Below are positions 22,248 through 28,719 of a DNA stretch of 53,418 nt, piece by piece (within the stretch, counting starts at the first letter, position 1; each line of letters opens with the position of its first letter). The notes under the pieces are model-generated. The model was not told the DNA's origin and did not search any database. It saw only the letters and a list, made by a program, of their open reading frames with translations. This DNA comes from Nitrospira sp. (lineage in GTDB: Bacteria; Nitrospirota; Nitrospiria; Nitrospirales; Nitrospiraceae). A program made the position numbers and the translations under genes. The stretch is taken from positions 769,477 to 822,894 of the forward strand of contig SWDG01000006.1 in NCBI GenBank assembly GCA_005116965.1. Reading direction: 5' to 3'.

Positions 22248-24302
22248 GTGAGTGATTCATCGATTATCACGTTTGCCATCATCGCGGCCTTCGCTGGTAT
22301 TGCCTATGGGTTGTACCTTGCGATGTGGGTATTCAAGCTTGATGCAGGCAATGCGAAAATGCAGGAAATTGCGAAGGCAATACAAGAAGGTGCCAGTGCC
22401 TACATGAATCGACAGTACAAAACCGTCGGCTATGTGGCTGCGGTGCTCTTCGTCATGCTCTGGGCCGCTGGGGCCGTCTCCGACAAGTTTGGCTTGCTGA
22501 CGGCGGTCGGGTTTTTGGTCGGCGCGGGAGCCTCGTCGATTGCCGGCTATGTGGGGATGATCATTGCCGTGCGTGCCAACGTGCGGACGGCGCAGGCAGC
22601 CCACAATGGCATGAATGCCGCCTTGACCGTCGCGTTTCGAGGGGGAGCGGTGACGGGTCTGTTGCTGATCGGCCTGGGGCTGTTATCGATTACGACCTTC
22701 TATATGGTCGCGCAATCAATCGCGGGGCAAGAGAAAGCCATTCACGCTTTGCTGAGCCTCGGGTTTGGCGGAAGCTTGATCTCGGTATTTGCTCGTGTCG
22801 GTGGCGGCATCTACACCAAGGCCGCGGATGTGGGTGCGGATCTCGTCGGCAAGGTCGAAGCGGGAATTCCGGAAGACGACCCTCGTAATCCAGCGGTCAT
22901 CGCGGATAACGTGGGCGACAACGTTGGTGACTGCGCCGGTATGGCGGCAGACCTGTTCGAAACCTACGCCGTGACGACAGTGGCGGCGATGGTCTTGGCC
23001 TTTACGATGTTTAAGGGGGCGACTGCCCCAATCCTGTATCCGTTGGTCTTAGGAGGCGTGACGATTTTCGCGACGATCATCGGGGTTCTCTTCGTGAAGG
23101 TGAGCCCGGGCGAGGAGGTCATGACGGCGCTCTATAAGGGGCTGTTCGTGGCCGGCGGGATCGCTGCAGTGGTATTTCTCCCGATCACTCTCATGATCAT
23201 GGGCGGGGTAGGGGGCGTCAGCGGCTTCAGCTACTACATCGCCGCATTGATGGGATTGGCGGTGACGCTGGCGCTTGTATTCATTACCGACTATTACACA
23301 TCGAAGAGCTATGAACCGGTGCAATATATTTCCAAAGCCAGCGAAACCGGCCATGCGACGAACATCATTGCGGGGCTGGCGGTCGGTATGCAAGCGACGG
23401 CGGCGCCGGTGGTGGTGATTGCAATGGCGATCCTGGGCAGCTACTCGGTCTGCGGTGGCGCGGAGTCCGGGGGGTTGTACGGCGTGGCGGTGGCGGCGGT
23501 CTCAATGCTGTCGATGGCCGGGATTGTCGTGGCGATCGATGCGTTTGGCCCGATCACGGACAATGCCGGCGGCATTGCCGAAATGTCGCATTTGGGTAAA
23601 GAAGTTCGGGACATCACTGATCCGTTGGATGCGGTCGGCAATACGACCAAGGCGGTGACAAAAGGCTACGCGATTGGGTCAGCCGCGTTGGCAGCGGTGG
23701 TGTTGTTCGCGGAATATTCTCGTGAGGTGGCGGCCATCAATCCCGCGCTGGCGGCGTTTGACCTCTCCAACCCGAAAGTGTTGGTCGGTCTGTTTCTCGG
23801 CGGCATGTTGCCCTTCATCTTTGGTGCGATGTGCATGAGGGCCGTGGGTGAAGCCGGCGGCTTGATCGTGGAAGAAGTGCGGCGGCAGTTCCGGACCATC
23901 AAGGGCATCATGGAAGGCACGGGGAAGCCTGACTACGCAACCTGCGTCGATATCGTGACTCAAGCGGCGATTCAGAAAATGATGATCCCCGGTTTGATTC
24001 CTGTGGTGTCGCCGATTCTGGTGGGCGTGATTCTCGGTCCGCAGGCGCTTGGCGGTGTGTTGGTCGGCAGCATCGTGACCGGCATATTCGTCGCGATTTC
24101 GATGACGAGCGGCGGTGGGGCCTGGGACAATGCGAAGAAGTATATCGAAGAGCAGGGGTTGAAGGGCACCGATACGCACAAGGCGGCGGTCACCGGTGAT
24201 ACGGTCGGCGATCCGTACAAGGACACGGCAGGACCGGCGGTGAATCCGATGATCAAGGTCATCAATATCGTGGCGTTGCTGATCGTGTCGTTAATCGTCT
24301 AA
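22248..24302 (+). CDS. hppA: Membrane-bound proton-translocating pyrophosphatase (K+-independent type)
   Basis: GTG 22248 follows AGCAGGAGGATT. The 684-residue product has about 16 membrane segments. It carries the pyrophosphate site motifs: [20 protein letters not shown] with [20 protein letters not shown], and the late [13 protein letters not shown] and [15 protein letters not shown]. It couples pyrophosphate hydrolysis to ion pumping across the inner membrane. The sequence [10 protein letters not shown] has Lys at the position where K+-dependent forms have Ala, so a K+-insensitive H+ pump is predicted. In a chemolithoautotroph with a low energy budget this recovers energy from biosynthetic pyrophosphate. 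It is followed by a terminator-like hairpin and so is probably monocistronic. Confidence 0.96.
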
Positions 24303-24352
24303 TTAAAAGGCGGTTGCGCACTCGATACCATATAGATTCACTCAGATGAGAA

Positions 24353-24382
24353 AGCGCCGTGTCCCAGCTGGGGCACGGCGCT
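24353..24382 (+). terminator. Terminator hairpin after hppA
   Basis: AGCGCCGTGTCCC, AGCT, GGGGCACGGCGCT: 13-base arms with one T/G pair and a 4-base loop, followed by TCTCGTTTCTC. This is a strong stem with a moderate pyrimidine tail, about 50 bases after the hppA stop. Confidence 0.65.
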
Positions 24383-24400
24383 TCTCGTTTCTCCCTTGTC

Positions 24401-24430
24401 TTGACGGGTTTCCATACCCTAGAGTATGGT
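24401..24430 (+). promoter_or_regulatory. Palindromic promoter/operator upstream of pup
   Basis: TTGACG (24401-24406) and TATGGT (24425-24430) are 18 bases apart. Inside lies an 18-bp near-perfect palindrome, CCATACCCTAGAGTATGG (24412-24429), centred on CTAG with one mismatched pair. A palindrome filling a long spacer recalls promoters of MerR-family regulators. This is an architecture-based guess; a simple repressor is equally possible. Confidence 0.5.
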
Positions 24431-24494
24431 AAATTCATTGATGACAGCTGCTGGCTGATCGCGAGGGTTTCCCTGGTCCACGGGAGGTGCTCGA

Positions 24495-24692
24495 ATGGAA
24501 AAGCAGGAACGGAAGCAAGAACCGAGACGTGAACCGCAGGGCAAGGAGGAGGTTAAGGCCAACCCTAAGGTGGTCGAGACCGGCAAGAAGCTGAAGGAAG
24601 ATATCGACAAGCTGGTCGATGAGATCGATGATGTGCTTGAAAAGAACGCTGAAGAATTTGTGAAGAATTACGTCCAAAAGGGAGGGGAATAG
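24495..24692 (+). CDS. pup: Prokaryotic ubiquitin-like protein Pup (C-terminal GGE)
   Basis: A 65-residue protein after GGGAGGTG. It is highly charged and disordered-looking at the N-terminus (MEKQERKQEPRREPQGKEE). The C-terminal half closely matches mycobacterial Pup: DKLVDEIDDVLEKNAEEF, then VKNYVQKGGE. The mycobacterial tail is VRAYVQKGGQ. Because this one ends in Glu rather than Gln, no deamidation by Dop should be needed before PafA ligates it to substrate lysines. Pup-tagged proteins are unfolded by the Mpa/ARC ATPase and degraded by the 20S proteasome. None of those genes is near: pup stands between hppA and recJ, under its own palindromic promoter. Confidence 0.93.
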   Translation: MEKQERKQEPRREPQGKEEVKANPKVVETGKKLKEDIDKLVDEIDDVLEKNAEEFVKNYVQKGGE

Positions 24693-24837
24693 CGCCACCG
24701 CTAGCTCTCCTTCGAGTCACCCTGCCATTTCCTTCACATCCTTCGGTTTGACAAAGAAGAAGCCCCTTATTACAGTCTTCCTCGTTCTCCTGCCATTGGG
24801 AGTATGTGTGTGGCCTAGGCCATTAAAGGAGATGGGG

Positions 24838-26535
24838 ATGAAGTCTAAGCTCTGGGTTTTCTCTCAAGTTGATCCCATCCAACGCGGCCTCTTATCAAAG
24901 GCCTTGTCGATCTCCTCGGCGACCGCCTCGTTGTTGCTCAATCGGGGTGTGATGAACGTGGACCAGGCGACGGCCTGGATGTCTCCTCTCCGAACTCATG
25001 ATCCTTTCTTAATTCCCGACATGGAACGGGCAGTTGACCGCCTATATCAGGCCATGCAACGTCGTGAAGTCGTTTGTTTTTACGGCGATTACGATGTGGA
25101 TGGCATGTCGGCCACAAGTATTTATCTGTCATTCTTCCGTGGGCTCGGTGCCGAAGTCCGAGCCTATGTTCCTCATCGGCTGCGTGAAGGGTATGGACTG
25201 AATGAGACTGCGGTTCGGACCTTGGCAGAGGAGGGTGCTTCTCTATTGGTGACGTCCGATTGCGGGACCACGTCGCACCATGAAATTCGCCTCGCGAATC
25301 AATTGGGGATCGACGTGGTTGTGACCGATCATCATCAAAGCGATATGGAGATGCCACCTGCGTTGGCGGTGATGAATCCGCATCGGCCCGAAGCGCGGTA
25401 TCCTTTTCACGGGCTCTGTTCCGGAGGTCTGGCGTACAAGGTGGCGCAGGCCTATGAGATGAAATACGGTTCCGGTTCGGTGCCGTTGGAGTCGCTCTTG
25501 GATTTGGTCGCGCTTGCCACGATCGCCGACGTGGTTCCGTTACAAGACGAAAATCGACTATTCGTTCGAGAAGGTCTGGTTCATCTTTCGCGCGGTGCCC
25601 GCTGTGGCCTACGGGCCTTGAAGCAGGTTGCCGGTATTAGTCGTGAGTGCACAGCGGAGACCATCGCGTTTAAACTTGGGCCTCGGCTGAATGCCGCAGG
25701 GCGCTTAGATGACGCGATTAAAGGGGTCAGACTTCTGACGACGGAGTCGGAACGGGAAGCGCAAGAGTTGGCTGAAGAGCTTGAACAGTTGAATCGAGCC
25801 CGCCGTGAGCTTGAGGCTGATATTGTGGAGCAAGCAGTTACGCAGGTGGAATCACGGGAGTTGCCGGGCGGTATTGTGCTGTATGCACGAGGGTGGCATC
25901 TCGGGGTCGTTGGCATCGTCGCGGCCCGTATCATGGAACGGTTTCATCGTCCGACGGTCGTTATTGCCGTGAATGAAGACGGTATTGGGAAGGGGTCGGC
26001 TCGGACTGTGCCAGGGTTCGACCTCTATCAAGCATTAGCCGGTTGTCGAGACCTCCTCATGGCGTTCGGTGGCCATCCCAGCGCGGCTGGGGTTACGATC
26101 CAAGAGGGGCGGTTGCCTGAATTTGCCGAACGCTTTTCCGCAACGGCCGAGACGTGGATGCGGAATACTCACAGCGTTCCCATGCTGCATCTGGATTCTG
26201 AGCTGCGCTTGGCCGAGGTCACGCTACAGCTGATTCGTGAAATCGGGACGCTACATCCATTCGGCGCGGGGAATCCCGAGCCAACGTTCGCTGTCCGAGG
26301 GCTGAACGTTCTCAATGCTCGCGTGGTCGGAGAGAAACATTTGAAGATGACTGTTCGGCAGGCTGGATCTCTGCCGTTTGATAGTATTGGATTTGGGATG
26401 AAGTCCCTGGAAGATCGTGGATTGTCCCTGAAGACGCCTATCGATGTGGCCTTTACCCCAGAACTAAATCACTGGAACGGCCAGGATCGGATTCAGTTGC
26501 GTATCCGAGACATACGAGCGGCAGGGGGCGAATAG
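24838..26535 (+). CDS. recJ: Single-stranded-DNA-specific exonuclease RecJ
   Basis: ATG 24838 is chosen because AAAGGAG ends 6 bases upstream; this gives 565 residues, the usual RecJ size. Phosphoesterase motifs are present: VCFYGDYDVDGMSATSIY (DxD), LVTSDCGTT, and VVTDHHQSD (DHH). The DHHA1 segment is LMAFGGHPSAAGVT, followed by the C-terminal OB-type domain (LHPFGAGNPEPTFAVRGL). RecJ degrades 5'-ended single-stranded DNA in recombination and mismatch/base excision repair. It is separated by 3 bases from the downstream (p)ppGpp synthetase gene, so they form an operon. Confidence 0.95.
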   Translation: MKSKLWVFSQVDPIQRGLLSKALSISSATASLLLNRGVMNVDQATAWMSPLRTHDPFLIPDMERAVDRLYQAMQRREVVCFYGDYDVDGMSATSIYLSFFRGLGAEVRAYVPHRLREGYGLNETAVRTLAEEGASLLVTSDCGTTSHHEIRLANQLGIDVVVTDHHQSDMEMPPALAVMNPHRPEARYPFHGLCSGGLAYKVAQAYEMKYGSGSVPLESLLDLVALATIADVVPLQDENRLFVREGLVHLSRGARCGLRALKQVAGISRECTAETIAFKLGPRLNAAGRLDDAIKGVRLLTTESEREAQELAEELEQLNRARRELEADIVEQAVTQVESRELPGGIVLYARGWHLGVVGIVAARIMERFHRPTVVIAVNEDGIGKGSARTVPGFDLYQALAGCRDLLMAFGGHPSAAGVTIQEGRLPEFAERFSATAETWMRNTHSVPMLHLDSELRLAEVTLQLIREIGTLHPFGAGNPEPTFAVRGLNVLNARVVGEKHLKMTVRQAGSLPFDSIGFGMKSLEDRGLSLKTPIDVAFTPELNHWNGQDRIQLRIRDIRAAGGE

Positions 26536-26538
26536 CCG

Positions 26539-28719
26539 ATGAAGTATGAAACGGTGACCGATATCGATCAGTTGCTGGATCGTCTGCAAGCCTATCAGCC
26601 GGACGCTGATCTCGGCATGGTGCGAAAGGCCTATGCGTTTTCGGTGAAGGCGCATGAAGGACAAATGCGTCACTCCGGAGAACCCTATGTGAAGCACCCC
26701 GTCGCGGTGGCCGGCGTCTTGACCTCTCTGAAAACCGACGTGACGGCGATTGTGGCCGGGCTTCTGCACGATACGCTGGAAGATACGGTAGCCACGGCCG
26801 ATGAGCTACAGCGTGAATTCGGAAAGGAAGTGGTCCATCTCGTCGACGGAGTGACGAAGATCGGGAAAATTACGTTTCGCAGTTCGGAGGAAAAGCAGGC
26901 GGAAAACTTCCGCAAAATGGTGCTCTCGATGGCGGATGACATTCGCGTCGTGATCATCAAATTGGCCGATCGGCTCCATAATATGCGAACCCTTGAGCAT
27001 CTCAAAGAAAGCAAACGGCAGGAAATCGCACAAGAGACGTTGGAGATTTATGCCCCTTTGGCCAACCGTATCGGAATCGGGTGGGTGAAGAACGAGCTGG
27101 AAGATTTGTGTCTGAAGCACCTCAAGCCGGAGGCCTACGAAACCCTACGCGTGTCCGTGGCGAAACGCGACGAAGACCGGCAGCAGTATATCCAGGAGGT
27201 ACAAGCCCTTGTTGAGAAGGCGCTGGCGGAGAATGGGTTGGTCGGAGCCGTGGACGGAAGGCCGAAGCACCTCTACGGCATCTATCAAAAGATGAAGAAG
27301 CAATCGATCTCGTTCGGAGAGGTCTACGATCTCACCGCCTTGCGAATCATTACTGATACGAAGATGAATTGCTACGCGCTCCTGGGCGTCATTCATTCGT
27401 TGTGGCGGCCGCTGCCTGGCCGCTTCAAAGATTACATCGCGATCCCCAAATCGAATCTCTATCAATCTCTCCATACGACCGTGGTCGGGCCGAAGGGCGA
27501 GCACGTAGAGTTTCAGATCCGCACGGAAGACATGCATCGTGTCGCCGAGTACGGAATCGCAGCGCATTGGAAGTATAAAGAGCAGGGGCGTCTGCAGGAT
27601 AAAGACAGCAAAGCCTTTGGATGGCTCAGACAGTTCATCGAATGGCAAACGGATCTGCCTGATAATCGTCAATTTATGGATTCCGTGAAACTTGAGTTGT
27701 TTCACGACGTGGTCTATGTCTTTACTCCGAAGGGAATCGTCAAAGAACTGCCGAAAGGGGCTACGCCGGTAGATTTTGCGTATGCGATTCACACGGAAGT
27801 CGGTGATCATTGTGTCGGCGCCAAGGTCAATGGAAAGATCGTTCCACTGAGGCACGAGGTGACGAGTGGTGACACGATCGAAATTCTGACCTCCTCCAAC
27901 CAGACTCCGCACAGGGATTGGCTCAAGTTCGTACGGACCTCACGGGCCAAAACCAAGATTAAACATTGGATCAAGATAGAGGAACAGAAGCGGAGTTTGG
28001 AAATCGGGTGGCGTTTGCTTGAGGCAGAGATTCGTCGGCATGGGTTGCCCCCCTCGCAGGTCTTCAAGTCGGATGCGCTGCTCGATGTCGCCAAACAGGA
28101 AGGCTACGCCACGGTTGACGAGTTGGCCGCGGCGGTGGGATTCGGCCACGTTGCGACGGCTCAAGTCGTCGGACGGTTGGTGGCTCCGACATCGGCGGGA
28201 ACGTCCATTCAACCCGATCCGGTCAGCGTTCCCAAAGTCGTCGGTACGAGAGGAGCAGAGCCGGGTGTCCAAGTCAAGGGTGGCCGCGATCTGTTGATGC
28301 AACTGTCGCGGTGCTGCAATCCCGTTCCCGGAGACAAGATCTTGGGATACATCACGCGTGGAAGGGGCCTCACGATCCATTCGGTTGATTGTCCTAACCT
28401 CGAAGCCTTGGACTATGATCGAGAGCGTCTGGTGGTGGTGGAGTGGGATACGGCCACGTCGAGTCAACACGCGGTCAAAATCGCGGTCATCGCGGAGGAT
28501 AAGACGGGAGTGCTGGCGAATGTGTCATCGGCGATCGCTGAATGTAATGCGAATATCAGCCGTGCCGAGATCATCACCAGAGAAGATCGGAAGGCCGAGT
28601 TGGATTTCGTGGTCGAGATTGCCGACACGAGTCATCTCAACCGAGTGCTCAAAGCCGTTGAACGTGTGGAGGGTGTCTTGACGGCCAGGCGGCTGAGGTC
28701 TTGGCGCGAAAAATCATGA
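26539..28719 (+). CDS. rel: Bifunctional (p)ppGpp synthetase/hydrolase (RelA/SpoT)
   Basis: A 726-residue protein with the full RSH layout: an HD hydrolase domain (residues ~50-150; VKHPVAVAGVL, GLLHDTLEDT, KLADRLHNMRTL), a synthetase domain (~240-350; GEVYDLTALRIIT, YIAIPKSNLYQSLHTTV, EFQIRTEDMHRVAEYG), TGS (~385-450; VYVFTPKGIVKELPKGATPVDFAY), a linker with SRCCNPVPGD, and a C-terminal ACT domain (~650-720). Both hydrolase motifs (HD and ED) are intact, so it should make and degrade the alarmone. It is the stringent-response regulator and is co-transcribed with recJ. It ends 24 bases before a convergent gene. Confidence 0.95.
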   Translation: MKYETVTDIDQLLDRLQAYQPDADLGMVRKAYAFSVKAHEGQMRHSGEPYVKHPVAVAGVLTSLKTDVTAIVAGLLHDTLEDTVATADELQREFGKEVVHLVDGVTKIGKITFRSSEEKQAENFRKMVLSMADDIRVVIIKLADRLHNMRTLEHLKESKRQEIAQETLEIYAPLANRIGIGWVKNELEDLCLKHLKPEAYETLRVSVAKRDEDRQQYIQEVQALVEKALAENGLVGAVDGRPKHLYGIYQKMKKQSISFGEVYDLTALRIITDTKMNCYALLGVIHSLWRPLPGRFKDYIAIPKSNLYQSLHTTVVGPKGEHVEFQIRTEDMHRVAEYGIAAHWKYKEQGRLQDKDSKAFGWLRQFIEWQTDLPDNRQFMDSVKLELFHDVVYVFTPKGIVKELPKGATPVDFAYAIHTEVGDHCVGAKVNGKIVPLRHEVTSGDTIEILTSSNQTPHRDWLKFVRTSRAKTKIKHWIKIEEQKRSLEIGWRLLEAEIRRHGLPPSQVFKSDALLDVAKQEGYATVDELAAAVGFGHVATAQVVGRLVAPTSAGTSIQPDPVSVPKVVGTRGAEPGVQVKGGRDLLMQLSRCCNPVPGDKILGYITRGRGLTIHSVDCPNLEALDYDRERLVVVEWDTATSSQHAVKIAVIAEDKTGVLANVSSAIAECNANISRAEIITREDRKAELDFVVEIADTSHLNRVLKAVERVEGVLTARRLRSWREKS

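Follow-up and report, generated by a model that had tools for sequence, protein, structure and literature searches.

A displaced pup gene in Nitrospira and a second, UBact-type tag–proteasome set in the same genome

The actinobacterial Pup–proteasome system, found in Mycobacterium and others, comprises the tag Pup with its GG[EQ] end, PafA, Dop, an ATPase and the 20S subunits PrcB and PrcA, and its pup gene is located between dop and prcB. A 2012 paper described the gene order as rigidly conserved across every organism capable of pupylation (PMC3511204). Two complete systems, L1 and L2, are described for Leptospirillum ferrooxidans in the same paper, where the second tag is presented without GGE; in today's naming that tag would be UBact. 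UBact systems are attributed to Lehmann et al. (2017) in PMC12751074. Bacterial proteasome subunits form two subclusters (PMC5666114), and a 2026 review gives a single 20S alpha and a single beta subunit in all Actinomycetales and Nitrospirales species except Rhodococcus erythropolis (PMC13022661).

We analysed a stretch of 53,418 nucleotides (the window) from a Nitrospira sp. genome (G000; 3.73 Mb, 27 contigs, completeness 99.2%, contamination 0.8%). The features around its pup gene are the following:

22248..24302, plus strand: hppA, H+-translocating pyrophosphatase (Pfam H_PPase, 1.1e-265; synteny); context only
24352..24383, plus strand: terminator-like hairpin after hppA, 14 pairs, short T-rich tail
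24401..24430, plus strand: pup promoter TTGACG-18-TATGGT, sigma-70-like; TTGACGG and GAGTA blocks kept in the genus
24483..24489, plus strand: pup ribosome-binding site GGAGGTG, invariant among the aligned genus members
24495..24692, plus strand: pup, stop included; 65 amino acids ending KGGE (Pfam, NCBIfam and PDB matches; pN/pS)
24748..24776, plus strand: recJ promoter TTGACA-17-TACAGT, kept in the genus
24838..26535, plus strand: recJ (Pfam DHH, DHHA1, RecJ_OB); context only
26539..28719, plus strand: rel, RelA/SpoT family (Pfam HD_4, RelA_SpoT, TGS, ACT_4; synteny); context only

The pup product (MEKQERKQ...LVDEIDDVLEKNAEEFVKNYVQKGGE, C-terminus YVQKGGE) has the size and terminus of a Pup, i.e. 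60–70 residues and a C-terminal GG[EQ]. The initial annotation had named it Pup, and this is borne out by its matches to Pfam Pup (PF05639; E 1.6e-21, 77.4 bits, cut-off 27) and to the Pup C-terminal model of NCBIfam (TIGR03687; 61.6 bits, cut-off 41.45), as well as by a gapless alignment with the Pup fragment of PDB 3m91 (E 4e-11). The UBact models (NF033388 / PF20513) do not match it; UBact is a separate gene of the same genome, on contig C1. Based on copies from 18 members of the genus, pN/pS is 0.037 (mean pS 0.71, pN 0.026), so pup is a genuine gene under strong purifying selection and a chance ORF is excluded. Some variation is seen among other Pups: the one of G005 (contig C52, L030) contains an in-frame tandem repeat of nine residues, KVVEAGKKL twice, directly before the binding helix. 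In G031 (contigs C79 and C106) there is only a weak Pup match and a Pup-ligase fragment full of stops, and the Pup system there has possibly decayed.

Concerning the surroundings of the gene, the neighbours named in the initial annotation are correct: pup lies between hppA and the recJ and rel genes, and this arrangement extends across the order. Common to the genus upstream of pup are CTTGACGG, a spacer and GAGTA(T/A)GGT. The promoter had also been called palindromic. A near-palindrome, CCATACCCTAGAGTATGG, is indeed present at about 24412-24429, where it covers the spacer and the -10 of the promoter, but we read it as a product of chance because, in an alignment of 20 genus copies, most relatives have a different left arm. 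The promoter itself is conserved and sigma-70-like, and no conserved operator was seen at it; a palindromic operator was rejected on the variable left arm. For recJ, the ORF as listed begins at TTG 24748, and homology in relatives begins at about residue 20-31; ATG 24838 appears the likelier start. Because pup has its own promoter, a hairpin ends hppA (a similar hairpin is present in part of the genus only) and recJ has its own promoter, pup is probably a transcription unit of its own. No terminator was found immediately 3' of pup, and read-through into recJ may occur. Co-transcription of pup with recJ and rel was rejected on the conserved recJ promoter 3' of pup.

A link to the stringent response had been suggested for this locus, and adjacency to rel is its sole basis. 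Regulatory rather than degradative tagging has been proposed for actinobacteria without 20S genes, and Pup at this locus could in the same way be a regulatory tag controlled together with rel. The position near rel, kept in most of the order, and the gene's own promoter would agree with this. We consider it improbable: recJ, with its own promoter, separates pup from rel, no conserved operator was recognised at the sigma-70-like pup promoter, and the genome contains a full Pup-type 20S cluster whose ATPase has a GHYL tail.

That cluster (cluster A) is located on the same contig as pup and begins 54.6 kb downstream. Its order is ATPase-Dop-PrcB-PrcA-PafA (L035, 10730-17001), and all five proteins score above the cut-offs of the curated Pup-system family models: 737.9 bits vs 504.75 for the ATPase, 551.8 vs 492.3 for Dop, 302.7 vs 191.9 for PrcB, 307.2 vs 139.05 for PrcA and 565.7 vs 551.3 for PafA. 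In each of the 16 cluster-A loci read, the ATPase ends in GHYL or GHYF. In G000, dop is followed by prcB after 23 bp and the tag gene is absent from this usual slot, so that pup and cluster A do not form a canonical operon with pup between dop and prcB. No proteasome, PafA, Dop or ATPase gene was seen among the window ORFs examined, in agreement with the initial annotation. The genome-wide search it had proposed for pafA, dop, prcA/prcB and the ATPase finds all of them on the pup contig, in cluster A. Its description of pup as an orphan in a non-proteasomal setting therefore holds for position, outside a proteasome operon, and does not hold for function: the Pup-type cluster is complete, and genomes without UBact keep exactly the pair of pup and cluster A. 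The gene is displaced from its proteasome genes, not orphaned.

In total, G000 has four Pup-ligase-family genes, two in cluster A and two in a second cluster (cluster B). The 20S beta subunits of both clusters retain Thr1, Asp17 and Lys33, as read by eye from the sequences. Two more loci, L040 (C7) and L042 (C27), account for an HslV and for another Ntn-hydrolase match, which is weak (Pfam Proteasome, 8.6e-6) and has no NCBIfam name.

The empty slot in cluster A would also fit a pup gene that is a relic, with the true tag of the cluster encoded by an undetected gene. This is very improbable. The low pN/pS, the invariant ribosome-binding site and the conserved promoter speak for a gene in use, Pup is present in nearly every genome with cluster A, and a search of G000 found one Pup and no second one hidden elsewhere, even at E 10. 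There is thus no further pup in a proteasome operon, a PafA is present, and the second cluster holds UBact.

Outside the order Nitrospirales (class-mates and families f13, f20 and f21 were read), pup is found inside the cluster, between dop and prcB; in family f11 a contig break lies between dop and pup, and pup is ahead of prcB. In the Nitrospirales families f1-f4, pup is located beside recJ, usually in the order hppA-pup-recJ-rel, and some f3 genomes have no hppA in the stretch read. In single-contig genomes, pup and cluster A are between about 46 kb (G191) and about 1.4 Mb (G250) apart. A single move of pup in the common ancestor of Nitrospirales would be the simplest history. Such a position for pup contradicts the rigid gene order of PMC3511204.

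The C-terminal Glu had been taken to make deamidation by Dop unnecessary, which is supported by the precedent of Corynebacterium glutamicum, where a native Glu terminus is known; Dop is retained with a Glu-ended Pup because it also removes Pup (PMC3511204). The Glu is not a distinguishing trait: two Pups of the same order (G033 and G036), and also those of G066 and G098, end in Gln with the same machinery. Since the terminus varies in this way among relatives, the native Glu is an ordinary feature that alternates with Gln inside the order.

Cluster B is found on contig C1 of G000 in the order ATPase-Dop-UBact-PrcB-PrcA-PafA (L036, 10120-16809, minus strand). Its tag has 64 amino acids, ends RQRTGE, is located between dop and prcB, and is UBact according to NF033388 (4.9e-22, 77.9 bits vs a cut-off of 35) and Pfam UBact (2.7e-21). 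All its enzymes fall below the Pup-system cut-offs (ATPase 436.4, Dop 472.4, PrcB 167.9, PrcA 68.4 and PafA 314.5 bits), and identities between the proteins of the two clusters are 28-42%. The ATPases of the nine UBact clusters noted end in ..[VI]I or ..IE, without the GHYL/GHYF tail, despite the adjacent 20S genes. The C-terminus of UBact is Gln in two genomes, G057 and G129. A PDB search for UBact relatives returned none. In G148 a second UBact-like stretch (C1, 1039871-1040017) scores 24 bits against the family cut-off of 35.

We surveyed 246 Nitrospirota genomes, each at least 85% complete; ligase-family genes were tallied across all of them and a Fisher test was applied. Pup is found in 116 genomes, UBact in 86 and both in 84. 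Exactly four ligase-family genes are present in 81 of the 86 genomes with UBact and two in 28 of the 32 with Pup only, and all but one (the draft G009) of the 128 genomes without either tag have none. The 20S beta genes are distributed similarly: two in 81/86 UBact-positive genomes and one in every Pup-only genome (32/32). The closed genome G057 (2.6 Mb, L145), a natural UBact-only organism, contains UBact and cluster-B enzymes and no Pup. Some drafts are off the pattern: G003 has Pup and UBact with cluster-B enzymes only, G009 has cluster A with no detected Pup, and G183 has no detected Pup; these breaks are taken as putative assembly gaps. Most Nitrospira genomes carry two complete tag–proteasome sets, N. 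moscoviensis and N. defluvii included. Cluster B as assembly contamination was rejected: both systems are present in these two species and in 12 single-contig genomes, and given the latter, the pattern is not accounted for by mixed bins.

These distributions also bear on whether Pup is shared, with both ligases or both proteasomes using it and the separate locus feeding two machines. In favour of such sharing, the PafA proteins of the two clusters are homologues (34.5% identity) that both retain the catalytic Asp motif. It is nevertheless unlikely, given that cluster B already has a tag gene between dop and prcB, that UBact and the second enzyme set coincide almost one to one, and that the UBact-only closed genome keeps the cluster-B enzymes only. 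Moreover, BLAST does not align Pup with UBact, and their termini differ (GGE vs TGE).

A tree built from 52 PafA and Dop proteins resolves four supported groups, namely PafA-A, Dop-A, PafA-B and Dop-B. The PafA of C. glutamicum groups with that of cluster A and the Dop of A. cellulolyticus falls in the A half, while the cluster-B enzymes stand apart from this half together with those of the UBact-only genome. Based on these groups and the 28-42% identities, the A/B split is old and not a recent duplication in G000. Clades and co-occurrence together point to cluster A as the partner of Pup, which is most likely the tag of that cluster, transcribed separately; some cross-reaction of Pup with the cluster-B enzymes may occur.

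We therefore read 24495-24692 as the Pup tag of the Nitrospira Pup–proteasome system, whose gene left the slot between dop and prcB and is now transcribed on its own from a site between hppA and recJ, with UBact and cluster B as a second, largely separate pathway; we give this a probability of about 0.88. Pup would be produced ready for use, with its C-terminal Glu. Judging from the families, the cluster-A PafA would phosphorylate the side-chain carboxylate of this Glu and join Pup to substrate lysines, and the cluster-A Dop would detach Pup from its targets. The cluster-A ATPase, with its GHYL tail, would recognise Pup and thread the pupylated substrates into the 20S core of the same cluster. 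UBact would serve the second pathway in the same cell through the ligase, Dop, ATPase and 20S of cluster B, and separate transcription could set the amounts of Pup independently of the enzymes. We lean slightly towards a further reading in which Nitrospira cells run the two pathways orthogonally, with a dedicated ligase, Dop, ATPase and 20S for each, and Pup comes from a locus of its own, which would allow the tag to be kept apart from the degradation machinery.

If both sets work, one bacterial cell contains two protein-tagging systems that are homologous yet distinct and run in parallel, and the specificity between tag and ligase and the purpose of UBact become directly testable with Pup as a built-in control. 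The order-wide relocation of pup means that a tag can stay uncoupled from its machine for a very long time. In the literature searched, to which the original UBact paper did not belong, neither the displacement of pup across the order nor the presence of two systems as the Nitrospira norm was found described; priority for both is uncertain. A phage origin was rejected: the sole match labelled phage, MT835496.1 ('Bacteriophage sp.', an unverified faecal scaffold; L171, 41633-45716), has ATPase-Dop-Pup-PafA in the actinobacterial order and is probably a mislabelled bacterial contig.

Compared with the actinobacterial system, the Pup of the window and cluster A share the GG[EQ] end and the full enzyme set, whereas pup is found at a separate locus in Nitrospira. 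Corynebacteria have no 20S subunit genes, whereas G000 has two sets; the native C-terminal Glu and the retained dop are shared with C. glutamicum (PMC3511204). Two complete sets in one genome are also described for L. ferrooxidans (L1 and L2; PMC3511204), both there in one gene context, unlike the Nitrospirales pup outside its cluster. The two sets of most Nitrospira genomes stand against the single alpha and beta stated for Nitrospirales in PMC13022661. Cluster B is a UBact system, with a UBact gene between dop and prcB whose product ends RTGE, whereas the tag encoded in the window is an ordinary Pup; what is unusual is its order-wide gene arrangement, alongside this second complete system.
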